The position numbers and the translations under genes are program-made. A stretch of 64,000 bases of DNA from Roseibacterium elongatum DSM 19469 (GTDB lineage: Bacteria; Pseudomonadota; Alphaproteobacteria; Rhodobacterales; Rhodobacteraceae). The notes under the pieces were generated by a model. It was given only the letters and a program-made list of their open reading frames with translations, was not told the origin of the DNA and searched no databases. This document shows positions 1 to 11,368 of this stretch, one piece after another; positions within the stretch are counted from its first letter, which is position 1, and every line of letters begins with the position of its first letter. The stretch lies in NCBI RefSeq assembly GCF_000590925.1, contig NZ_CP004372.1, forward strand, positions 2,089,001 through 2,153,000, given 5' to 3'.

Positions 1-618
1 CCCAAGGGGGCAGGGGCGCTGCCAACGCCCCCGGCACAGCGGATCGCCCTGGCCCAGGATGCCGCGTTTTCCTTTGCCTATCCGCATCTGGTGCAGGGCT
101 GGCGCGCGGCGGGGGCCGAGATCCTGCCGTTTTCGCCCCTGGCCGACGAGGCGCCCGACCCCTCGGCCGATCTGGTCTGGCTGCCCGGCGGCTACCCCGA
201 ATTGCATGCCGGTCGGCTGGCTGCGGCCACGCGATTTCTGGACGGGGTGCGGCAGCACGCCCGGACCAGGCCGGTCCATGGTGAATGCGGGGGCTACATG
301 GCGATGGGGCAGGCCCTGGTGGACAAGGACGGGCACCGTCACGCGATGGCGGGGTTGCTGGGCCTCGTGACCTCCTACGAATGTCGCAAGTTCCACCTCG
401 GCTATCGTCGCGCCGTGCTTGACGGGCCGATGCCCGGCCACCGGAGCGGCGCGGCGCTCAAGGGGCACGAGTTCCACTATTCGACGATCCTCGAGCAGCC
501 GGACGCGCCGCTGGCCAGCGTCACCGATGCCGATGGCAATCCCGTCCCCGAAACGGGATCGCGGCGGGGCCATGCCACCGGCACCTTTTTTCACCTGATC
601 GCGGGAGAGGCCGGATGA
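1..618 (+). CDS. cobB: Cobyrinate a,c-diamide synthase, C-terminal part (5' end outside window)
   Basis: CobB uses glutamine and ATP to amidate the a and c side chains in cobalamin synthesis (hydrogenobyrinate in the aerobic pathway). The reading frame is open from base 1, so the N-terminal ATP-binding half lies outside the window. What is present is the class I glutamine amidotransferase half: the nucleophile motif HGECGGYM and, near the end, the His motif GHEFHYS. The stop overlaps the start of cobA in an ATGA, indicating translational coupling. The following cobA and cobF support the cobalamin assignment over other GATase families. Confidence 0.93.
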   Translation, partial: PKGAGALPTPPAQRIALAQDAAFSFAYPHLVQGWRAAGAEILPFSPLADEAPDPSADLVWLPGGYPELHAGRLAAATRFLDGVRQHARTRPVHGECGGYMAMGQALVDKDGHRHAMAGLLGLVTSYECRKFHLGYRRAVLDGPMPGHRSGAALKGHEFHYSTILEQPDAPLASVTDADGNPVPETGSRRGHATGTFFHLIAGEAG

Positions 619-1346
619 CGGGCTTTGTCAGTTTCGTGGGATCGGGGCCGGGCGACCCCGAGCTTTTGACCCTCAAGGCGCTGGACCGGATAAAGCGCGC
701 CGATGCGATCCTGTACGATGATCTGTCGGCCGGTCCGATCCTTTCGCATGCCCGGCCCAGTACCGACCTTGTGGGGGTCGGGAAACGCGCGGGCCGCCCC
801 TCGCCCAAGCAGCACCATGTCAGCCGCCTGCTGGTGGATTACGCGCGCGCCGGGGGGCGGGTCGTGCGCCTGAAATCCGGCGACAGCGGGCTGTTCGGAC
901 GGTTGGAAGAGGAACTGGTGGCCTTGCGCGAGGCGGGGATCGCCTTCGAGATCATACCCGGCGTCGCCTCGCCCTTTGCGGCGGCGGCGGCGGCGGGCAT
1001 CCCGCTGACGAGGCGGCTGAGCGCGCGGCGGGTGCAATTCGTGACCGGGCATGACGCCTCGGGCCAACTGCCCGCCGATCTGGACCTCGACGCGCTGGCC
1101 GATGCCACGGCCTGCACCGTCGTCTTCATGGGCAAGCGCACCTTTCCCCTGCTTGCGCAGGCAGTGATGGCGCGCGGCCTGGCCGCCGACACCCCGGCCA
1201 TGCTGGCCGAGGCGGTCGGATCGCCCGCGGCCCGCTATGCGCGCAGCACCCTTGCGGCCCTGGCCGATCAACTGGCCAAGGGCACCGGCGACAAGCCCGC
1301 CCTCATCTTCTATGGCCCCTTGGCCGAGAGCTTTCACGATGACTGA
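615..1346 (+). CDS. cobA: Uroporphyrinogen-III C-methyltransferase
   Basis: CobA (SUMT) transfers two methyl groups from S-adenosylmethionine to uroporphyrinogen III, giving precorrin-2, the branch point to cobalamin and siroheme. The 243-residue protein has the family's N-terminal glycine-rich motif GSGPGDPELLTLKA, the LKSGDSGLFGR segment and the EIIPGVAS motif that lines the SAM pocket. Length is normal for the single-domain enzyme; there is no CysG-type oxidase/ferrochelatase domain. The start overlaps the cobB stop (ATGA) and the stop overlaps the cobF start, so the three genes form a tight operon. Confidence 0.95.
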   Translation: MTGFVSFVGSGPGDPELLTLKALDRIKRADAILYDDLSAGPILSHARPSTDLVGVGKRAGRPSPKQHHVSRLLVDYARAGGRVVRLKSGDSGLFGRLEEELVALREAGIAFEIIPGVASPFAAAAAAGIPLTRRLSARRVQFVTGHDASGQLPADLDLDALADATACTVVFMGKRTFPLLAQAVMARGLAADTPAMLAEAVGSPAARYARSTLAALADQLAKGTGDKPALIFYGPLAESFHDD

Positions 1347-2079
1347 GCTATGGCTGGTCGGCATCGGCACCGGGAACCCCGATCACCTGACCCTCGAAGG
1401 GCGGGCCGCGCTGCGTGACGCGGCGTTGGTGATGGTGCCGCGCAAGGGGGCGGAAAAGTCCGACCTTGCCGAATTGCGCCATCAGATCCTTGCGGCCTGC
1501 GGCAGCACCGCCCCGGTGGCCGAGTTCGACATGCCCCTGCGCGATGACAGCCTGCCCTATGCCGAGCGGGTGGCGCGCTGGCATGACGAGATCGCCGCGA
1601 TCTGGGCCGCGACCATGGCGGCAGCGCAGCCGCGGGGGCCTGTTGCGCTGCTGGTCTGGGGGGATCCGGGGCTGTACGACTCGACCCTGCGGATCGCGGA
1701 TCGCCTGGTGCCGAGGCCGCGCTTGCGCGTCGTCCCGGGGATCACCGCCTTGCAGGCTCTGACAGCAGCGCATGCCGTCCCGTTCAACACTGTGAACGGG
1801 GCGGTGACCGTCACCACCGGCCGCCGCCTGCGCGATCATGGCTGGCCCGAGGGGGCCGAAACCGTCGCCGTGATGCTGGACGGGGACTGCAGTTTCCAGC
1901 GCCTGCCGCCCGAGGGGCTGCATATCTGGTGGGGTGGGTTTCTGGGCATGCCCGAGCAGGTGCTCGAGGCCGGGCCGCTGGCCGAGGCCGGGCCGCGCAT
2001 CGTCGCCACCCGCGCCGCGGCGCGCGCGCGCCATGGCTGGATCATGGACACCTATCTGATCCGCAAGGGCGCGGGGTGA
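1339..2079 (+). CDS. cobF: Precorrin-6A synthase (deacetylating)
   Basis: CobF methylates C1 of precorrin-5 and removes the acetyl group, a step specific to the aerobic cobalamin pathway. The 246-residue product has the tetrapyrrole-methylase fold signatures LVGIGTGNPDHLTLEG at the N-terminus and RVVPGITALQAL in the middle. The start at 1339 was chosen because it overlaps the cobA stop by 8 bases and begins MTELWLVGIG; a more upstream ATG would read antisense to family conservation. Presence of cobF indicates that this organism makes the corrin ring aerobically. Confidence 0.92.
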   Translation: MTELWLVGIGTGNPDHLTLEGRAALRDAALVMVPRKGAEKSDLAELRHQILAACGSTAPVAEFDMPLRDDSLPYAERVARWHDEIAAIWAATMAAAQPRGPVALLVWGDPGLYDSTLRIADRLVPRPRLRVVPGITALQALTAAHAVPFNTVNGAVTVTTGRRLRDHGWPEGAETVAVMLDGDCSFQRLPPEGLHIWWGGFLGMPEQVLEAGPLAEAGPRIVATRAAARARHGWIMDTYLIRKGAG

Positions 2080-2148: not shown

Positions 2149-3270
2149 TCAGGCCAATGACCGCCCATCGCGCGCCATCCACGCCATGACCGAGAGCGCC
2201 AGCCATTCGACATCACTTGCCGGAAGCGGTCCCGTCGCATCGCGCCGAAACCCCAGCCGCGCGGGCCAGTCGCACAGCGCGCCACCGGCGCGGCCACCGA
2301 CATGGACCGGACGATCCGGGATACGGGCCTTGATCCGGTGGGCCAACTCGGCCGTCCGGTCCGCGTCGCTCGCCAGACCGACTCGTGGGCCCGCAATGAC
2401 GATCGACGCCGGATCTGTGCGCGACAGGGTGGCCAGTGTCGCCTCGATATCGCCTTCCAGCACGAGTTGAACGGACATGCCCGCAGCGCGCAGCAGATCG
2501 GCCTTGACCACCGCGCCGAGGATTTCGAAGTTGCCCGGCGGCACGACGATGGCAACCGACCCCTGATCGCGCAACGGCAAAGGACTGCGCCCGAGGCGCT
2601 GCCAAAGGCAGTTCAGATGCCCCAACCCGACCGCGATCTCGGCCGTGGACCAGACCTCGTCCTGCCAGCCCTTCGCGAAGGCGGCGCAGACCTCGTCGAC
2701 AAGTTGCGCCCGCGTGCGCAGATCCTTTCTGGCCGGCGGCGGCAGGTTGGGCAGGCTGTCGGACCCGCAACGCACCAACTGCTCGGCCAGGCTGACCGGT
2801 GTGCCCCCGCCGTTCAAGTCCCGTCGCATCCGCCGCCGATGGCCATGGGCCGCATGCTCGAAGGCGATCATCGCCTGGTCGACATCCAACGCCCCACCAC
2901 GGGGCCCGAGGACCGCCCCTGGCAGGCTGTCATCCTGCACCGGAGGTTCGGCAAGACGCATCGGCCAGCCGGGAAAACGCCGCGTCGGCATCCAACCGGC
3001 ACTCAGGACCGAGATGTCCCGGTGCCGCGGATCGGCCGTGATGCGCGCCATAAGGGCGCAGACATCGTCGGCCGGCCCCTCGAGCCATTGCAGGAACGTG
3101 TCTTTGCTGGAAATGAGCACGCCCGAGACCCCGTTGCGACGGTTCTTCGTTTCCGACTGGGCGGCCAGGGTGACGACCTCGCGGCGTTGCAACCCGGCGG
3201 CCGCGCGGCTGGAATAGGCAAGGCGAAAAATCCGCTGCCCATCGGGAAAGGGGATTGTCACGTGTCGCAT
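2149..3270 (-). CDS. AppA-like regulator: BLUF blue-light domain plus B12-binding-like domain
   Basis: The 373-residue protein begins with a BLUF (FAD blue-light sensor) domain, about residues 14-105. The residues that matter for the photocycle are present: Tyr19 (LAYSS), Asn43 (five before VSG), Gln61 (FLQWLEG) and Trp93. After a linker, residues from about 205 to the end resemble the B12-binding-like (SCHIC) domain of the AppA/PpaA/AerR family: a helical lead-in, then a Rossmann-like part with VPPGNFEILG in place of the classic cobalamin motif DxHxxG. So a His-ligated B12 as in MetH is not expected at that position; heme or base-on cobalamin binding remains possible. AppA of Rhodobacter sphaeroides is an antirepressor of PpsR; no ppsR is in the window, and AppA's Cys-rich tail is absent here. 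The start has the RBS GAGAGG. The leader carries a cobalamin riboswitch. Confidence 0.85.
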   Translation of the reverse strand: MRHVTIPFPDGQRIFRLAYSSRAAAGLQRREVVTLAAQSETKNRRNGVSGVLISSKDTFLQWLEGPADDVCALMARITADPRHRDISVLSAGWMPTRRFPGWPMRLAEPPVQDDSLPGAVLGPRGGALDVDQAMIAFEHAAHGHRRRMRRDLNGGGTPVSLAEQLVRCGSDSLPNLPPPARKDLRTRAQLVDEVCAAFAKGWQDEVWSTAEIAVGLGHLNCLWQRLGRSPLPLRDQGSVAIVVPPGNFEILGAVVKADLLRAAGMSVQLVLEGDIEATLATLSRTDPASIVIAGPRVGLASDADRTAELAHRIKARIPDRPVHVGGRAGGALCDWPARLGFRRDATGPLPASDVEWLALSVMAWMARDGRSLA

Positions 3271-3316
3271 TTTTGCCGCCTCTCATCATCGGCGGGGCGG
3301 CAGGCCAACGGACGAA

Positions 3317-3334
3317 ACCGCCTGGTCCGGCGGT
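3317..3334 (-). terminator. Hairpin between riboswitch and BLUF gene; possible expression platform
   Basis: On the minus strand ACCGCC-GGACCA-GGCGGT gives a 6-bp stem and 6-base loop followed by TTTC. It lies between the aptamer's B12 box and the start codon, so it could be an intrinsic terminator formed when cobalamin is bound. The short T run makes this only a candidate. Confidence 0.35.
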
Positions 3335-3379
3335 GGCGTCCCCAGTCCCCCCGGTGCACCCCGCCCGGTCCAACATGTC

Positions 3380-3560
3380 AGATGGCAGGTCTCCTGGCTT
3401 GCGGGTTGTTGCTCGACCGGTCCTTCCCGGGCCTTGGGCCCAGTGGCGTTCTCCGGTCTCGCTCGCCGCTCACAGTTGCGGGGGCAGCCACGGATTTGCC
3501 CGGTCGGTCGGACCATCGGGCGCACCGTGTTCCCTTTTCAGCCAGACGCCCCTGAAAGGA
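3380..3560 (-). ncRNA. Cobalamin riboswitch (AdoCbl aptamer)
   Basis: On the minus strand the conserved cobalamin-aptamer elements appear in order: GGGAACACGGTG (3523-3534), the core CCGCAACTGTGAGCGG (around 3466-3481), GCCACTG (3441-3447), the GGGAAGG segment, and the B12 box AGCCAGGAGACCTGCC (3384-3399). The only gene it can control in this orientation is the BLUF/B12-fold regulator, whose ATG is about 113 bases downstream of the box. metH ends upstream of it and the cob genes are on the other strand. Confidence 0.93.
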
Positions 3561-3759
3561 CGCCTGCGCACCATCGCGGGCAGTGTGGATCGGGCGGCGA
3601 GTGCAAACGGAAACTTACGCACCGGCTGGCATTTTGTCTCGACATGGTGAGGGGTTGCGCTGGATTCAGAAAATTGATCTGCCCACGCCCCGCCCGCCTG
3701 CGCGCAAGCGCGGCGAGAGGCGTCGGGCGCTGCGATCACCCCACGCGCAGCCCGCCCGG

Positions 3760-6488
3760 TCACGCCGCGGCGCGGTCTGGCGAGGATCCGGGCGTGTAAT
3801 TCAGAATGGGCGCAAGCCAGCGCTCGGCCTCGTCCACGTCCATGCCCTTGCGCTGCGCGTAATCTTCCACCTGGTCGCGTTCGACCTTGCCGACGCCGAA
3901 ATAGTAGCTGTCGGGGTGGCCGATATAGAGGCCGGAGACCGACGAGCCGGGCCACATCGCCATGCTTTCGGTCAGGCGCACGCCCGTCGTTGCCTCGGCA
4001 TCAAGGAGCCGGAACAGCGTCTGCTTTTCGGTGTGGTCGGGTTGCGCCGGATAGCCCGGGGCAGGGCGGATCCCGGCATAGGGCTCGCCGATCAGATCCT
4101 GCGGCGCGAACGCCTCGTCCGTCGCATAGCCCCAGAACTCCCGCCGCACGCGTTGGTGCAACATCTCGGCCATCGCCTCGGCGATCCGGTCGGCCAGCGC
4201 CTTGACGAGGATCGCGCCGAAATTGTCGTTGGCCTTGTCCAGCCGCTCGGCGATCTCGATCTCTTCGGGGCCCGCGGTCACGACGAAGCCGCCGACATGA
4301 TCGGCCCCCTTGCCCTCGGGCGCCATGAAATCCGACAGGGCGAGGTTGCGGCGGTCGCCGCGTTTGGCGGTTTGCTGGCGCAGCGTATGAAATGTGGCCA
4401 GCGTCTCGGCCCGATCCGCCCCGGTGAACAGCCGGATATCGTCGCCGACCGCGTTCGCGGGCCAAAAGCCCAGAACGGCGCGCGGCGTGAACCAGCGTTC
4501 GTCGATGATGCGTTTCAGCATGTCCTGCGCGTCGGCAAAGAGGGCGCGCGCCGCCTCGCCCTGTTTTTCGTCCTCGAGGATCTTTGGATAGACGCCCCGC
4601 ATTTCCCATGTGTGGAAAAAGGGCGTCCAGTCGATGTAGCGGGCGATCTCGGCCAGATCCCAATCCTCGATACCCCGCGTGCCGGTAAAGGTCGGGGCGG
4701 GCGGGGTGTAGGCGTCCCAGTCCAGCCTGAGGGCATTGGCCCGCGCGGCGGCCAGCGGGACACGTTGCTTGGCGCGTTCACCGCGTTCGTGCTTTTCGGC
4801 GACGTCGGCATAGTCGGACCGGATGCCGGCGACATAGGCGTCTTTCTGCGTCGGGCTGAGCAGCGCGCCCACCACGCCCACGGCGCGGCTGGCATCCGTG
4901 ACATAGACGGCCTGACCGCGCGCATAACGCGGCGCGATCTTGACGGCGGTATGCACCTTGGACGTGGTCGCGCCCCCGATCAACAGCGGAATGTCGAAGC
5001 CTTCGCGCTCCATCTCGGAGGCAAGATGCACCATTTCATCCAGCGATGGCGTGATCAGGCCCGACAGGCCGATGATATCCACGTTCTCCTCTCGGGCGAC
5101 CTGCAGGATCTTCTGCGGCGGCACCATCACGCCAAGGTCCACGATCTCGTAGTTGTTGCAGGCCAGAACGACACCGACGATGTTCTTGCCGATGTCGTGG
5201 ACATCGCCCTTGACGGTGGCCATCAGCACCTTGCCCGCCGATTGCCGCCCGTCGCCGCCCGACAGGCGCTTTTCCTCTTCCATGTATGGCAGCAGGACCG
5301 CGACGGCCTGTTTCATCACGCGGGCCGATTTCACCACCTGTGGCAAGAACATCTTGCCCGCGCCGAACAGGTCGCCCACCACGTTCATGCCGGCCATCAA
5401 GGGCCCTTCGATGACATGCAGCGGACGCTCGGCAGCGGCGCGGGCGGCCTCGGTGTCTTCCTCGATGAACTCGGTGATGCCGTTGACCAGCGCATGTTCC
5501 AGCCGCTTTTCCACCGGCCAGTCGCGCCAGGCGAGGTCGCGCACCTTCTCCTCACGCTTGCCGCCGCGAAAACGCTCGGCGATGTCCAGCAAGCGCTCGG
5601 TCGCGGTGCCGCCCGCCTTGGGCTGGCGATTGAGGACAACATCCTCGCAGGCCTCGCGCAGCTCGGGGTCGATCTGGTCATAGACGGCCAGCTGCCCGGC
5701 ATTGACGATGCCCATGTCCATGCCCGCCTTGATGGCGTGGTAAAGGAAGACGGCATGCATCGCCTCGCGCACCGGCTCGTTGCCGCGAAAGCTGAAGGAC
5801 AAATTCGACACGCCACCAGACACGTGGGCATGCGGCAGGTTCTGCCGGATCCAACGGGTCGCCTCGTGAAATCGACGCCGTAATTGTCATGCTCCTCGAT
5901 GCCGGTGGCGACGGCAAAGACATTCGGGTCGAAGATGATGTCCTCGGACGGAAAGCCCATCTCGTCCACCAGGATGCGATAGGCGCGGGCGCAGATCTCG
6001 ATCTTGCGCTCATACGTGTCGGCCTGGCCCTGCTCGTCAAAGGCCATCACCACCACCGCCGCGCCATAGCCCATGCACAGCCCGGCGTGATGACGAAACG
6101 CCTCTTCGCCCTCCTTCAGGCTGATCGAGTTCACGACCGGCTTGCCCTGAACGCATTGCAGGCCGGCCTCGATCACCTCCCATTTGGAGCTGTCGATCAT
6201 GATCGGCACGCGGGCGATATCGGGCTCGGAGGCGATGAGATTGAGATACTCGACCATCGCGGCGGTCGAATCGATCAGCCCCTCGTCCATGTTCACATCG
6301 ATGATCTGCGCGCCGTTCTCGACCTGGTCGCGCGCGACGTTCAGCGCGGCGGCATAGTCGCGGTTGACGATCAGTTTGCGAAAGCGGGCCGAGCCGGTCA
6401 CGTTCGTGCGCTCGCCCACGTTCACGAAGGGAATGTCAGGCGTCAGGACAAAGGGCTCGAGGCCCGACAGCCGAAGATAGCGGGTCAT
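3760..6488 (-). CDS. metH: Cobalamin-dependent methionine synthase, pterin/B12/activation subunit (frameshifted)
   Basis: This gene encodes everything of MetH except the homocysteine domain: the pterin-binding barrel (starting [13 protein letters not shown], with [11 protein letters not shown]), the B12 cap and Rossmann domain with the cobalamin motif [11 protein letters not shown], and the C-terminal AdoMet activation domain ([22 protein letters not shown]). It takes methyl from 5-methyl-THF to cobalamin for transfer to homocysteine. The reading frame breaks at about 5866-5872: before it runs [14 protein letters not shown], after it [16 protein letters not shown] in another frame. One lost base restores a continuous product of about 909 residues, so this is probably a sequencing error or a very recent mutation. 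The start overlaps the upstream homocysteine-methyltransferase stop by 4 bases. Confidence 0.9.
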
Positions 6489-7537
6489 GCGGTCACCTTG
6501 CGGGGGGCAAATTCGGCCACCGCATCGGCGATGGCCCGGATGTGGTCCGGGGTCGTGCCACAGCAGCCGCCGACGACATTGACGATCCCGTCCCGTGCGA
6601 AATCGGCGACCTGTGCCGCGGTTTCGTCGGGCGTTTCGTCATAGGCGCCAAAGGCGTTGGGCAGCCCGGCATTGGGATAGGCGCAGGTCAGCGAGGTCGC
6701 GACGCCCGCGATCTCGGCCATGTGGGGGCGCATCGCGGCGGCCCCCAGCGCGCAGTTCAGGCCGACCGTGAACGGGCGCGCATGGGCCACCGAATGCCAG
6801 AAGGCCGTGGGCGTCTGGCCCGACAGGGTGCGGCCCGAGGCGTCGGTGATCGTCCCCGAGATCATGATCGGCAGGCGGCGGCCGGCCTTGGCAAAACTTT
6901 CATAGGCGGCAAAGATCGCGGCCTTGGCGTTGAGCGTGTCAAAGATCGTCTCGATCAGGATCAGGTCGGCGCCGCCCTCGATCAACCCGTCGATCTGCTG
7001 GCCATAGGCCAGACGCAGGTCATTGAAGGTCACGGCGCGATAGCCGGGGTCGTTCACATCGGGGCTGATCGAGGCGGTGCGGTTCGTCGGCCCGACCGCA
7101 CCTGCGACGAAGCGCGGGCGGCCATCGGCGGCCATCGCCCGTTCGGCGGCCCGCCGCGCCACCTGCGCGCCGGCCAGGTTGAGGTCATGCACCGCCCCTT
7201 CCAGCCCGTAATCGGCCTGGGCGATCGTGGTGGCCGAAAACGTGTTCGTCTCGAGAATATCCGCCCCGGCCAAAGCGAATTCGACCTGGATGTCCTCGAC
7301 CGCTTGCGGCTGGGTCAGCACGAGCAGGTCGTTGTTGCCCATCTGCGGATGGTCGGGGTGATAGTGATGGCGACAGCCGGGGCCGTGGATATGGCCGTTC
7401 GCGGTGAAATCCTCCTCGGTCATGTTCAGGGTCTGGATCATGGTGCCCATCGCCCCGTCGAGGATCAGGATGCGCTCGGCCGCCAGGGCGCGCAACGCGG
7501 CATGGGCGGGGCTTTCGGGCAAGGAGAAGTTCAACAT
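6485..7537 (-). CDS. metH: Methionine synthase homocysteine-methyltransferase subunit (MetH domain 1)
   Basis: The 350-residue product is the zinc-dependent homocysteine-binding TIM barrel that forms the first domain of single-chain MetH. The zinc ligands are visible: Cys in VGLNCALGA and the Cys pair in [12 protein letters not shown]. It ends where domain 1 of MetH ends and a new start codon follows in an ATGA overlap, so here methionine synthase is naturally two polypeptides made from one operon. This split is distinct from the frameshift further downstream. The 156-base gap upstream is relatively AT-rich and should hold the promoter. Confidence 0.92.
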
Positions 7538-7947: not shown

Positions 7948-8130
7948 GTCGACCCTCTTTCGTCGTGACACGGGGCCGATCGCGCCATGGCGCTGCGCCC
8001 CGGCCAAGATGGAACAAACGTGTGGCGAGCGATCGTCTTTCGCGGCCAGACCCGTCCACATCGTTCAAAGTGGTGTCCTGGTCCGCCCGGCCGCCGGTCT
8101 GCGGCCCGAGGCGGACTTGGTATCCTGTGC

Positions 8131-8154
8131 GGCCGACGCCCCTGGGCGCCGGCC
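8131..8154 (-). terminator. Putative terminator downstream of znuA
   Basis: GGCCG-a-CGCC with loop CCTG and GGCG-c-CGGCC on the other arm forms a strong GC hairpin beginning 7 bases after the znuA stop. No U tract follows on the minus strand. The rest of the gap 7948-8161 shows no gene. Confidence 0.45.
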
Positions 8155-8161
8155 GTTTGGA

Positions 8162-9256
8162 TCACGCCGCTGACAGGCACTCGGCCAGGGTTGTGGCCAG
8201 GTTCCGCATCAATTGCGGGTACAGCGTCGGCCCGACGTCAAGATCGACACCCAGCGGGTCGATCACCCCTGTATTCGCCTCGGTGCCCTCTAGAACGGTG
8301 GCCACAAGGCCGGGGTCGAATTGCGGTTCCGCCAGGACACACTGAACCCCTGCGTCGCGGACGCGCTCCTGTATCTCGGCGATCCGCGCCGGGCTGGGAT
8401 CTTGCGCGTCGCCCAGCGAAATGGCGCCGGAGGCCGGGAAATCGAAGGCCGTCTCGAAATACTGGTACGCGTCATGGAAAACGATGAAATTGCCACCGCG
8501 CACCGGGTCGAGGAGTTCGGTGACCTCGGCCGACACGGCCTCGAGTTCCGCTTGCGCCGCCGCGGCATTCGCGAAATAGGCCCCGGCATTCTCGGGATCG
8601 GCCGCGGACAATTCGGCCGCGATCAGGTTCAGCCATGCCGCCGCATTCGCGGGAGACAGCCATGCGTGGGGGTCGAACGCCCCGTGGTCATGGCCGTGGT
8701 CGTGCCCATCGGCGTCGGCATGCTCCTCATCGGCGTGCTCGTCGTCATGCGCGTGGTCATCGTCGTGATCATGGTCGTCATGCCCGTGGTCGTCGTGATC
8801 ATGCGCCGCATCTGCGTGATCTTCGTGGTCATGATCGTCGTCCGCGTGGTCGTCATGATCGTGGTCATGATCTTCATCGCCATGCGAATGCGCCTCGAAC
8901 AGGGCCCCTTCGCGGAACGGCAGCAAGGTCGTTTCCTCCGCTTCCAGCAGGGTCAGAACCCCGGCCCCCTCGGCCAGCACGCGCACGGCGCTGGTCATCC
9001 AGGGCGCCAGGCTGTCGCCCATCCAGATCACGACATCCGCGTTCTGCAATGCGTCGGCCTCGGACGGGCGCAGGTTGTATTCGTGCGGCGAGGCCCCCGG
9101 CGGCAGGATCAGGTTCGGTTCGCCGACCCCGTCCATCACGCGCGCCACGAGGGAATGGATCGGTGCGATGTCGACGGCGACACTGGGCACATCGGCCATC
9201 GCCGTGCCGCCCAACAGGGTGGCCGCTACGGATAGGGAGGCAAGCTTTCTGGACAT
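8162..9256 (-). CDS. znuA: Zinc ABC transporter, periplasmic binding protein
   Basis: ZnuA captures Zn2+ in the periplasm for the ZnuBC importer. The 364-residue protein begins with a signal peptide (MSRKLASLSVAATLLGGTAMA). Zinc-site motifs are present: PPGASPHEY (His58) and DPHAWLSP. Between them, residues about 123-198 form a very His/Asp-rich loop with roughly 23 histidines, the hallmark that separates zinc- from manganese-type cluster 9 proteins; it is longer than in most homologues. The start at 9256 fits the signal peptide; an upstream ATG at 9328 would prepend unrelated residues and run through the zur operator. It is divergent from zur-znuCB. Confidence 0.94.
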   Translation of the reverse strand: MSRKLASLSVAATLLGGTAMADVPSVAVDIAPIHSLVARVMDGVGEPNLILPPGASPHEYNLRPSEADALQNADVVIWMGDSLAPWMTSAVRVLAEGAGVLTLLEAEETTLLPFREGALFEAHSHGDEDHDHDHDDHADDDHDHEDHADAAHDHDDHGHDDHDHDDDHAHDDEHADEEHADADGHDHGHDHGAFDPHAWLSPANAAAWLNLIAAELSAADPENAGAYFANAAAAQAELEAVSAEVTELLDPVRGGNFIVFHDAYQYFETAFDFPASGAISLGDAQDPSPARIAEIQERVRDAGVQCVLAEPQFDPGLVATVLEGTEANTGVIDPLGVDLDVGPTLYPQLMRNLATTLAECLSAA

Positions 9257-9267
9257 GGAGAACCCCG

Positions 9268-9282
9268 TGTGATTGTATAACA
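9268..9282. promoter_or_regulatory. Zur-box-like palindrome, znuA side
   Basis: TGTGAT-TGT-ATAACA matches the pattern TGwTAT-N3-ATAwCA with one mismatch. It lies 12 bases before the znuA start. Zur regulation is inferred from the neighbouring zur gene. Confidence 0.5.
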
Positions 9283-9298
9283 TTGGCTGTTGCCTAAA

Positions 9299-9313
9299 TG
9301 ATATGAAATAACA
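9299..9313. promoter_or_regulatory. Zur-box-like palindrome, zur side
   Basis: TGATAT-GAA-ATAACA fits TGwTAT-N3-ATAwCA at every position. It touches the first possible zur ATG (9313), which argues that zur translation starts at 9334. With the second copy 31 bases away it would allow Zur to repress both directions. Confidence 0.6.
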
Positions 9314-9333
9314 TGGCAAGTGAGGCAAGACTC

Positions 9334-9831
9334 ATGTCCGCCGAAAGCGCGGTTCCCCTCGGGTTCGAAAAGCATGACCACATGACCTGCGTCGCCGAGG
9401 CCCTGTCCGCAGCCGAGGCGCGCTGCGCCGAGGAAGGCCTGCGCCTGACGCCGGTGCGTCGCAAGGTGCTGGAGTTGCTGCTGCAAGAGCATCGTGCGCT
9501 GGGGGCCTATGCCATTCTGGATCTGCTGCGCGGGGCGGGGTTCGGCTCGCAGCCGCCGGTGGCCTATCGCGCCCTCGATTTCCTGTCGGAACATGGTTTC
9601 GTGCACCGGATCGAGCGCCTGAATGCCTTTGTCGCCTGCGCCCATCCCACCGAGCAGCATTCGCCGGCCTTCATGATTTGCCGGATCTGCGGCGCGGTGG
9701 CCGAAACGCCCGCCTCGCCCGGCAAAGGGGCCTTTGCCGCCGCCGCCCGCGCCGCGGGGTTTCAGATCGAGAAAACGGTGTTCGAGGCCGAGGGCATTTG
9801 CCCGGCCTGCGCCGAGAAAGCAGATGCATGA
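9334..9831 (+). CDS. zur: Zinc uptake regulator, Fur family
   Basis: A 165-residue Fur-family repressor with the winged-helix segment (RLTPVRRKVLELL to VAYRALDFLSEHG) and the metal-site motif CAHPTEQHSP, plus the structural zinc cysteine pairs CRICG and CPAC. Position between znuA and znuCB identifies it as Zur rather than Fur. The start at 9334 is preceded by GAGG at good spacing; the ATG at 9313 is embedded in the candidate Zur box. The stop overlaps znuC in an ATGA. Zur would bind DNA with Zn2+ and repress both znu transcripts, including its own. Confidence 0.92.
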   Translation: MSAESAVPLGFEKHDHMTCVAEALSAAEARCAEEGLRLTPVRRKVLELLLQEHRALGAYAILDLLRGAGFGSQPPVAYRALDFLSEHGFVHRIERLNAFVACAHPTEQHSPAFMICRICGAVAETPASPGKGAFAAAARAAGFQIEKTVFEAEGICPACAEKADA

Positions 9832-10571
9832 GCCTGATCAGTGTCAAGGACCTGAGCGTCGCCTATGGTGCGAACCGCGTGCTGCGCCATGTGGACCTGA
9901 CCCTCGAACCGGGGGAGATCGTCACCATCGTGGGGCCGAACGGGTCGGGCAAGACCAGCCTCTTGCGCGCCATCATCGGGGCCACGCCGGTCAGCGACGG
10001 CAAGATCACCCTGAAGCCGGGGCTGAAGATCGGCTACGTGCCGCAGCGTCTGCATATCGACCCGACCTTGCCGATCACGGTCGACCGTTTCATGCGCCTG
10101 ACCGACCCCGTGTCGCGCGACCGATGCAAGGCGGCGCTGACCAAGGCGGGCGTGCCCGACCTGCTGACACGGCAGATGTCGCAGCTGTCGGGCGGGCAGT
10201 TCCAGCGCGTCCTGCTGGCGCGGGCGCTGATCAACCAGCCCGATGTCCTGCTGCTTGACGAGGCGACGCAGGGGCTGGATCAACCCGGATCGGCGGCCTT
10301 CTACCAACAGATCGAGGCCGTGCGCCGCGAGACCGGCTGTGCCGTCGTCATGATCAGCCACGAGTTGCACGTGGTCATGAGCGCGTCCGACCGCGTCATC
10401 TGTCTGAACGGTCATGTCTGTTGCGAGGGCACGCCCGCGGTCGTCGCTTCGGCACCGGAGTATCGGGCGCTGTTCGGCACCGGGACCGGGGGGGCCTTGG
10501 CGCTCTATCGGCACGAGCATGACCACGGCCACGACCACGACCACCCGCAAAGCCACGAGGCCGCCGAATAA
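9828..10571 (+). CDS. znuC: Zinc ABC transporter, ATPase
   Basis: ZnuC energises zinc import. The 247-residue ATPase shows Walker A GPNGSGKT, signature LSGGQFQR, Walker B VLLLDEA and the switch His in VVMISHE. It ends in a His-rich tail (RHEHDHGHDHDH), which is cytoplasmic and could bind zinc; such tails occur in some alphaproteobacterial ZnuC. It is coupled to zur by an ATGA and to znuB by TAATG. Confidence 0.94.
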   Translation: MSLISVKDLSVAYGANRVLRHVDLTLEPGEIVTIVGPNGSGKTSLLRAIIGATPVSDGKITLKPGLKIGYVPQRLHIDPTLPITVDRFMRLTDPVSRDRCKAALTKAGVPDLLTRQMSQLSGGQFQRVLLARALINQPDVLLLDEATQGLDQPGSAAFYQQIEAVRRETGCAVVMISHELHVVMSASDRVICLNGHVCCEGTPAVVASAPEYRALFGTGTGGALALYRHEHDHGHDHDHPQSHEAAE

Positions 10572-11368
10572 TGCTCGACGATTTCATGACCCGCGCCACC
10601 CTTGCGGGGATCGGGGTGGCCTTTGCCGCGGCGCCGCTGGGCTGTTTCGTGGTCTGGCGCCGGATGGCCTATTTTGGCGATGCGACGGCCCATGCCGCCA
10701 TTCTGGGGGTCGCGTTGTCGCTGGCGCTCCAGATCTCGATCTTTGCCGGGGCGCTGGCCGTGGCCCTGCTCATGGCGCTGACCGTGACGGTGCTGGCCGG
10801 GCGAGGCTATGCGATGGACACGCTGCTGGGTGTGCTTGCGCATGCCGCCCTGGCCTTCGGCTTGGTGGCGGTGTCGTTCATCTCGGGCGTGCGGTTCGAT
10901 CTGATGGCCTATCTGTTCGGCGATATCCTGGCGGTGTCGCGCGGGGATCTGGTGGTGATCTGGGGCGGCGCGGCCCTGGTCGTTGCGCTGATCGTCTGGC
11001 GCTGGGCGGCGCTCTTGACCTCGACCCTCAGTCCCGAACTGGCCTATGCCAGCGGTCTCGATCCCAAGCGCGAACAACTGGTCCTGACGATTTCGCTGGC
11101 CATCACGGTGGCCGTCGCCATCAAGGTGGTGGGGGTGCTGCTGATCGCGGCCATGCTGATCATCCCGGCCGCCGCCGCCCGTGGCCTGGCCCGGACGCCC
11201 GAGGCCATGGCGATGATCGCCGCCGCGATCGGGGCGATTTCGGCCGTGACCGGCCTGCAGGGGGCTTATCTGTTCGACACGCCGGCCGGCCCGACCATCG
11301 TCTGCGTGGCCGCGATCATTTTCGCGGTGCTGAACCTGTTTGGATGGCGCAGCCGCAGCGGGGCCTGA
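10571..11368 (+). CDS. znuB: Zinc ABC transporter, permease
   Basis: A 265-residue integral membrane protein of the ABC-3 (cluster 9) permease family with about eight hydrophobic segments; it begins MLDDFMTRATLAGIG and contains the family segment FGDATAHAAILG. It forms the membrane channel of ZnuABC. It is the last gene of zur-znuC-znuB, sharing one base with the znuC stop. Confidence 0.93.
   Translation: MLDDFMTRATLAGIGVAFAAAPLGCFVVWRRMAYFGDATAHAAILGVALSLALQISIFAGALAVALLMALTVTVLAGRGYAMDTLLGVLAHAALAFGLVAVSFISGVRFDLMAYLFGDILAVSRGDLVVIWGGAALVVALIVWRWAALLTSTLSPELAYASGLDPKREQLVLTISLAITVAVAIKVVGVLLIAAMLIIPAAAARGLARTPEAMAMIAAAIGAISAVTGLQGAYLFDTPAGPTIVCVAAIIFAVLNLFGWRSRSGA

Follow-up and report, generated by a model that had tools for sequence, protein, structure and literature searches.

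We found a complete cobalamin riboswitch aptamer immediately ahead of a gene encoding a BLUF domain joined to a B12-type fold in the 64,000-nucleotide stretch of the Roseibacterium elongatum DSM 19469 genome analysed here (the window; Table 1), and the same pairing at other loci in other genomes. Cobalamin riboswitches are known for the control of cobalamin transport and synthesis and of B12-independent enzymes. We hypothesise, giving the idea an even chance of being right, that this BLUF protein is produced under B12 shortage as a flavin-based stand-in that does without B12 and replaces PpaA/AerR, the B12-requiring antirepressor of PpsR, with PpsR as its probable target and antirepression as the probable sign of its output.

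Table 1. Features of the window around the BLUF gene (positions count from the first nucleotide of the window).
Feature	Position	Strand	Evidence or remark
Two tetrapyrrole methylases (cob genes), convergent with the BLUF gene	615..2079	+	Pfam PF00590, 150 and 104.8 bits
BLUF/B12-fold (AppA-like) protein, 373 aa, ATG start	2149..3270	-	Domain matches and predicted fold
Helical cap and Rossmann B12-type (SCHIC) domain, aa 154-339	2254..2811	-	
Degenerate cobalamin motif N247-F-E249-I-L-G252	2515..2532	-	AerR here has E-x-H-x-x-G
BLUF domain, aa 15-104	2959..3228	-	Pfam PF04940, 91 bits; Tyr19, Asn43, Gln61, Trp102, Met104
Putative expression platform	3271..3366	-	Two mutually exclusive local folds
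Cobalamin riboswitch aptamer, complete	3367..3590	-	RF00174; B12 box AGCCAGGAGACCTGCC
metH in pieces (6485-7537, 5397-6488, 3760-5823)	3760..7537	-	NCBIfam PRK09490/metH over three ORFs

The aptamer matches the whole Rfam cobalamin model (positions 1-189 of 189) at 113 bits (E 1.6e-27; gathering cut-off 31.5 bits) and is the sole Rfam match in the window at gathering thresholds, which bears out the original prediction that a complete aptamer of this class lies upstream of the BLUF gene. Judging from the riboswitch class, cobalamin would be expected to lower expression of the gene. The leader offers two putative, mutually exclusive folds: pairing of GGGCGGGG (3366-3359) with CCCCGCC (3297-3291) would leave the Shine-Dalgarno-like GAGAGGCGG (3284-3276) free, and pairing of GCCGCC (3301-3296) with GGCGGC (3280-3275) would hide that stretch; neither is better than shuffled sequences (z -0.5 and -0.63), so the expression platform is a candidate only. 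Between 2000 and 3900 the minus strand shows no terminator-like site. Local folds pair the Shine-Dalgarno-like stretch, wholly or in part, at all 11 loci with a placeable start (window, L008, L010, L011, L012, L014, L015, L017, L023, L108, L109), with fold energies from z -2.3 (L012) to +0.4 against simple shuffles, and on such energies we do not claim a conserved expression platform. The host genome, a single contig of 3,555,109 bases, has three further cobalamin riboswitches, which precede a cobN-like gene (by eye, L104), a small ORF that matches no family (L105) and a TonB receptor (L106) whose best model is a B12 receptor, with a score below the cut-off.

The predicted protein has the layout of AppA, a BLUF domain followed by a helical cap and a B12-type fold, and its nearest fold is AppA, including AppA bound to PpsR; the proposal that a BLUF domain joined to an AppA/PpaA-like B12-fold domain lies behind the riboswitch thus holds, on the fold and on the PF04940 match. 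Two Pfam models stay below their cut-offs in this protein, AppA_SCHIC at 22.1 bits (cut-off 28.6) and B12-binding at 13.2 bits (cut-off 32.1). The five BLUF residues listed in Table 1 are present in 20 of 20 aligned proteins, and we take this set to be the photocycle residues of AppA. The protein is probably a blue-light sensor with flavin, and flavin photochemistry, in its BLUF domain.

The residues known to hold the metal in AerR and AppA are missing. AerR binds cobalt through His145 of the motif E143-x-H145-x-x-G148, and the H145A change largely disrupts its cobalamin binding (excerpts of PMC6199135); the heme ligand of AppA, His284, is shifted two positions from AerR His145 (excerpt of PMC9144470). 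When aligned with PpaA/AerR-like proteins, the window protein has Glu249 at the cobalt-binding position and, in the same alignment, Asn247 at the position of His284. Among the 20 aligned proteins the histidine position of the cobalamin motif holds Glu in 18 and Asp in 2, and it is Glu in all eight readable riboswitch-linked members of the clade of the window protein (the window, L008, L010, L011, L012, L014, L015 and L109; the ninth, L017, is interrupted by an in-frame stop and does not enter the alignment). The idea that the light sensor may itself read B12 or heme therefore finds no support in the window protein, where both known metal-ligand positions are non-histidine. Loss of the cobalamin motif is already known in the PpaA/AerR family, since Rhodospirillum rubrum has a member without it (according to an excerpt of PMC10734443).

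Four riboswitch-linked relatives (L023, L026, L037 and L052, with ETHLIG, ESHLLG, EPHLLG and EPHLLQ) do keep the histidine, and they occupy a different part of the tree from the clade of the window protein. An upstream riboswitch together with absence of the known cobalamin ligand is thus true of that clade and not of these four, so B12 independence cannot explain every riboswitch-BLUF pairing; the four need another reading, for example a B12 sensor made at low B12, or a B12/flavin dual sensor, which their histidine makes plausible. Applied to the window protein, such a reading would have the B12-fold domain still bind a tetrapyrrole, either cobalamin without the histidine or heme through another residue, and act as a dual sensor of light and of B12 or heme under feedback by its own ligand. 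The match of the fold to AppA SCHIC and to AerR and the histidine of the four distant relatives speak for it. Against it stand the residues found at the ligand positions of AerR (Glu249) and AppA (Asn247), the Glu or Asp that all 20 aligned proteins have at the first of these, and the Pfam B12-binding score below cut-off, and we judge it quite unlikely.

A cobalamin riboswitch on the same strand lies upstream of the gene at 13 BLUF/B12-fold loci in 12 genomes labelled Alpha-, Beta- or Gammaproteobacteria (85.5-130.1 bits), a count that includes the window, takes Rhodovulum sulfidophilum once and has two loci from the metagenome-assembled genome (MAG) G1040. The scores in bits are 124.9 (L010), 120 (L011), 126.1 (L012), 125.2 (L014), 123.1 (L015), 85.5 (L017), 116.5 (L023), 102.5 (L008), 119.7 (L052), 118.6 (L037), 96.9 (L026) and, for R. 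sulfidophilum, 130.1 (L071/L109) and 128.4 (L108, another strain); L006/L066 and L009 repeat L014 and L017, and L070 repeats L015. At L017, from a Shimia MAG, the gene (8001-8794) has its in-frame stop shortly after the start and the riboswitch match persists.

Among 49 loci of the genome collection, the riboswitch precedes 10 of 23 BLUF/B12-fold genes versus none of 25 BLUF-only genes (Fisher p 1.7e-4); the truncated L035 was excluded from this test and gives p 2.4e-4 when counted as B12-fold, and moving L052, whose B12 fold is weak (13.5 bits by profile; Pfam AppA_SCHIC 17.1, under cut-off), to the BLUF-only group gives 9 of 22 versus 1 of 26 (p 0.003), all these p-values being rough since related sequences enter the count individually. 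All 23 BLUF/B12-fold loci were searched with Rfam; the 25 BLUF-only loci, two of which (L048, L054) have fewer than 700 bases upstream, and L035 were judged by B12-box pattern only. The broken L017 is for that reason not a row in the pattern survey, and its riboswitch comes from Rfam. Seven more BLUF-only loci (L060-L065, L072) had no riboswitch by Rfam (0 of 7), which together with the 0 of 25 by pattern rules out the riboswitch as a mark of all BLUF genes.

The expectation that orthologues would also have the riboswitch upstream was borne out at these 13 loci and failed at three Glu-bearing relatives, L013, L016 and L107, for which no riboswitch, degenerate ones included, was found up to E 1; the Glu and the riboswitch can therefore separate. 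AppA-like and other BLUF/B12-fold genes without an upstream riboswitch are L018-L022, L024, L025, L030, L033, L042, L047 and L067-L069; the stretches examined for L030 and L042 do contain one at another place, not before the BLUF gene. A tree of 29 proteins, with seven forks open and L008 on a long branch, rejects a single riboswitch-linked clade (p-AU 0.00012), and with it one inherited origin of the pairing; it needs at least six changes of riboswitch state, with gains and losses indistinguishable. Could the riboswitch belong to neighbouring B12 genes and have come to lie before the BLUF gene by shuffling, without function there? Several genomes are rich in such riboswitches, with up to 13, but at 13 loci, whose neighbours differ, the riboswitch stands immediately before the BLUF gene and on its strand; it also lies on separate parts of the tree and, by B12-box pattern, precedes none of the 25 BLUF-only genes, so that we regard hitchhiking of this kind as highly improbable.

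The protein matches in at least 5 of 394 genomes of the family (E 1e-20), and in at least 5 of 390 of the order and at least 1 of 385 of the class (E 1e-30), this genome included in each case and some matches lacking the riboswitch; about five candidates were scored per genome, so these counts are lower bounds. A full-length protein occurs in 3 of 16 genomes of the genus of R. euryhalinum and, within the genus of the window, in this genome only among five. The L037-type protein occurs in 2 of 399 genomes, and the second of these loci (L159) has no B12 box.

Class I and class III ribonucleotide reductases (RNR), MetE, the glyoxylate shunt and the methylcitrate cycle all bypass B12-dependent steps, and genes for them recur beside the BLUF gene. 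At L010 the order is riboswitch, nrdI, nrdE (as two ORFs), nrdF, then a riboswitch and the BLUF gene, and at L017, read by eye, it is metH, riboswitch, an ORF in which nrdI appears to continue into nrdF, riboswitch and BLUF gene. At L052, in the same MAG as L010, a riboswitch, RNR alpha (nrdA) and RNR beta (nrdB) precede the riboswitch and the BLUF gene; this alpha subunit scores 402.6 with the model of the B12-dependent NrdJ (cut-off 399.95) and 1631.5 with a non-NrdJ model, a score that together with the beta subunit following it supports a class I reading. The BLUF gene of L011 is divergent from an RNR alpha gene that has its own riboswitch; this alpha subunit is over the cut-off of a non-NrdJ model and below that of NrdJ. 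On the R. sulfidophilum plasmids (L108, L109) aceB, aceA, riboswitch and BLUF gene follow in order, and a second riboswitch on the same plasmid precedes a MetE-type methionine synthase. In R. euryhalinum (L140) a series of riboswitch, nrdD, nrdG, an unread stretch, prpC, prpB and metE is convergent with the BLUF gene. Such company, frequent among the relatives, suggests that the protein stands in for a light sensor dependent on B12. The neighbours in the window itself, metH and cob genes, count against the stand-in reading, and no B12-independent enzyme was seen by eye next door at L008, L012, L023, L026 and L037.

Several of these loci show further features. MAG G1040 has two unlike BLUF/B12-fold genes (L010, L052), each with its own cobalamin riboswitch and each immediately behind a riboswitch-led set of RNR genes. 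The stretch 2051-13553 of L140 forms a riboswitch-led island of B12 independence with a class III RNR, methylcitrate-cycle genes and MetE. On pORIO2 of Cereibacter azotoformans (L107, 4998-6101) aceB, aceA and the BLUF gene stand together as in R. sulfidophilum, with prpC-prpB nearby and no riboswitch detected. Contig 91 of G1045 (L141) carries two cobalamin riboswitches on opposite strands, facing by eye a cobN-like gene and a receptor/transporter set, on a contig with ppsR and a reaction-centre gene. The metH of the window is broken at 5397-5823, where ORF 5397-6488 corresponds to positions 326-531 of the MetH model and ORF 3760-5823, in another frame, to 546-1182; the same part is a single ORF in L017 and L144, and the interruption may be either a real frameshift or an assembly error. 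Ordinary-looking zinc-uptake genes lie at 8162-11368 of the window: one encodes a ZnuA (Pfam 204 bits) that contains a stretch rich in His and Asp, and a Fur-type regulator, an ABC ATPase and a permease were recognised by eye.

Regarding photosynthesis, PpsR/CrtJ (TIGR02040, above the curated cut-off) and reaction-centre genes were found in all 15 genomes tested, ten with a riboswitch-linked gene (G000, G118, G342, G363, G1027, G1038, G1040, G1041, G1042, G1045) and five without (G051, G062, G516, G1043, G1044); G1046 and G1047 lay outside this test. The background frequency of reaction-centre genes is 48 of 120 genomes of the family (40 percent). The link to photosynthesis gene control that had been drawn from AppA therefore stands as co-occurrence, one that does not separate riboswitch-bearing from riboswitch-less genomes, PpsR being present in both. 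A PpaA/AerR-like ORF adjoins ppsR and keeps the histidine in 15 of 15 genomes (that of G1041 was found by reading the stretch; that of G1040 has Gln replacing the motif Glu; in G1045 the motif pattern matched another place and the alignment gives EQHSFG), and in this genome it passes the Pfam B12-binding cut-off (37.4 bits versus 32.1). The host genome has a second stand-alone B12-fold protein at about 1.57 Mb (L152, 1318-2154; Pfam B12-binding 46.1 bits), with an intact E-x-H-x-x-G and next to a sensor-kinase-like ORF, not ppsR. The BLUF gene lies at 2.09 Mb and ppsR at 1.08 Mb; this distance of about 1.0 Mb, and the B12-related genes near the BLUF gene at several loci, would suit a target other than PpsR, for instance B12-related metabolism in the light, with PpsR present merely as a reflection of phototroph hosts. 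We consider such a target improbable, since the BLUF protein shares its output domain with known PpsR partners and PpsR/CrtJ is there in every genome tested.

We propose that with plentiful cobalamin the riboswitch would repress the BLUF gene, and that scarcity would release this repression. In Dinoroseobacter shibae the interaction of PpaA with PpsR requires cobalamin (excerpt of PMC10890935). PpaA/AerR, needing B12 to bind PpsR, would then fail under B12 shortage, and the BLUF protein, whose AppA/AerR-type output domain lacks the cobalt-binding histidine and most likely docks on PpsR/CrtJ, could take over the light-dependent antirepression of photosynthesis genes. The BLUF protein would be to PpaA/AerR what MetE is to MetH. 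More specifically, and tentatively, as a proposal that falls somewhat short of an even chance, the chromophore of the light sensor would be swapped according to vitamin supply, a riboswitch-driven flavin BLUF/B12-fold antirepressor replacing the cobalamin-based PpaA/AerR on PpsR at low cobalamin. The same parts could work with the opposite sign, the BLUF protein helping PpsR to repress photosynthesis genes at low B12, because bacteriochlorophyll synthesis can depend on B12 and its intermediates turn phototoxic. The B12 need would lie in the BchE step of this synthesis. Such a brake would fit the presence of PpsR in all 15 genomes and the variable sign of PpsR partners, two AerR isoforms acting in opposite ways (excerpt of PMC6199135); but AppA, which comes closest in structure, acts as an antirepressor according to an excerpt of PMC10890935, and the neighbours at several loci are replacement enzymes, not brakes, and we deem it unlikely.

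Taken with the stand-in reading, the recurrent arrangement suggests that a B12-free light sensor is made when the vitamin needed by the usual light sensor is low. A photoreceptor as the riboswitch-controlled gene, in genomes labelled Alpha-, Beta- and Gammaproteobacteria, would connect the supply of the vitamin with the response to light through an RNA. If the proposal is true, a riboswitch governs a photoreceptor and the logic of MetE and MetH reaches from enzymes to light sensing, and the histidine-keeping pairings on separate branches would be a second way to couple light sensing with B12 supply. It would also explain, in a form open to testing, why phototrophs retain PpsR partners of both the flavin- and the B12-based kind, each of which could serve when the cofactor of the other is missing. 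Riboswitch-bearing R. sulfidophilum, R. euryhalinum and R. adriaticum are in culture collections, so that it can be tested now.

The component parts are of known kinds, and the pairing of the riboswitch with a BLUF/B12-fold gene is one for which we found no earlier report in the open-licence PMC literature, as judged by the titles and abstract openings listed. A BLUF gene on a R. sulfidophilum plasmid was noted in 2013 as an AppA orthologue, in a text that does not contain the word riboswitch (PMC3738892); it belongs to the same family (38.5-40.1 percent identity) and has a leader riboswitch of 128-130 bits but, unlike the gene of the window, lies behind aceB-aceA on a plasmid. Compared with AppA of Cereibacter (Rhodobacter) sphaeroides, the window protein is 22-23 percent identical, has Asn247 for the heme ligand His284 and lacks the Cys-rich C-terminus (five Cys, the last at 333 of 373), and none of five AppA-branch genes (L019, L020, L022, L030, L069) has the riboswitch. 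PpaA/AerR, whose gene adjoins ppsR, is a cobalamin-binding protein with the E-x-H-x-x-G motif and without a BLUF domain, whereas the window protein has Glu249 for the histidine and its gene lies away from ppsR. The isoenzymes under cobalamin riboswitches (metE, class I and III RNR) share the RNA class and, in several cases, the very loci, but the gene controlled here encodes a photoreceptor rather than an enzyme or transporter. In D. shibae, LdaP is a flavin-based (LOV) sensor that antirepresses PpsR alongside the B12-dependent PpaA (excerpt of PMC10890935, a paper whose main text has the word riboswitch 0 times); LdaP is a LOV and the window protein a BLUF protein, the latter being predicted to be a flavin-based light sensor as well.
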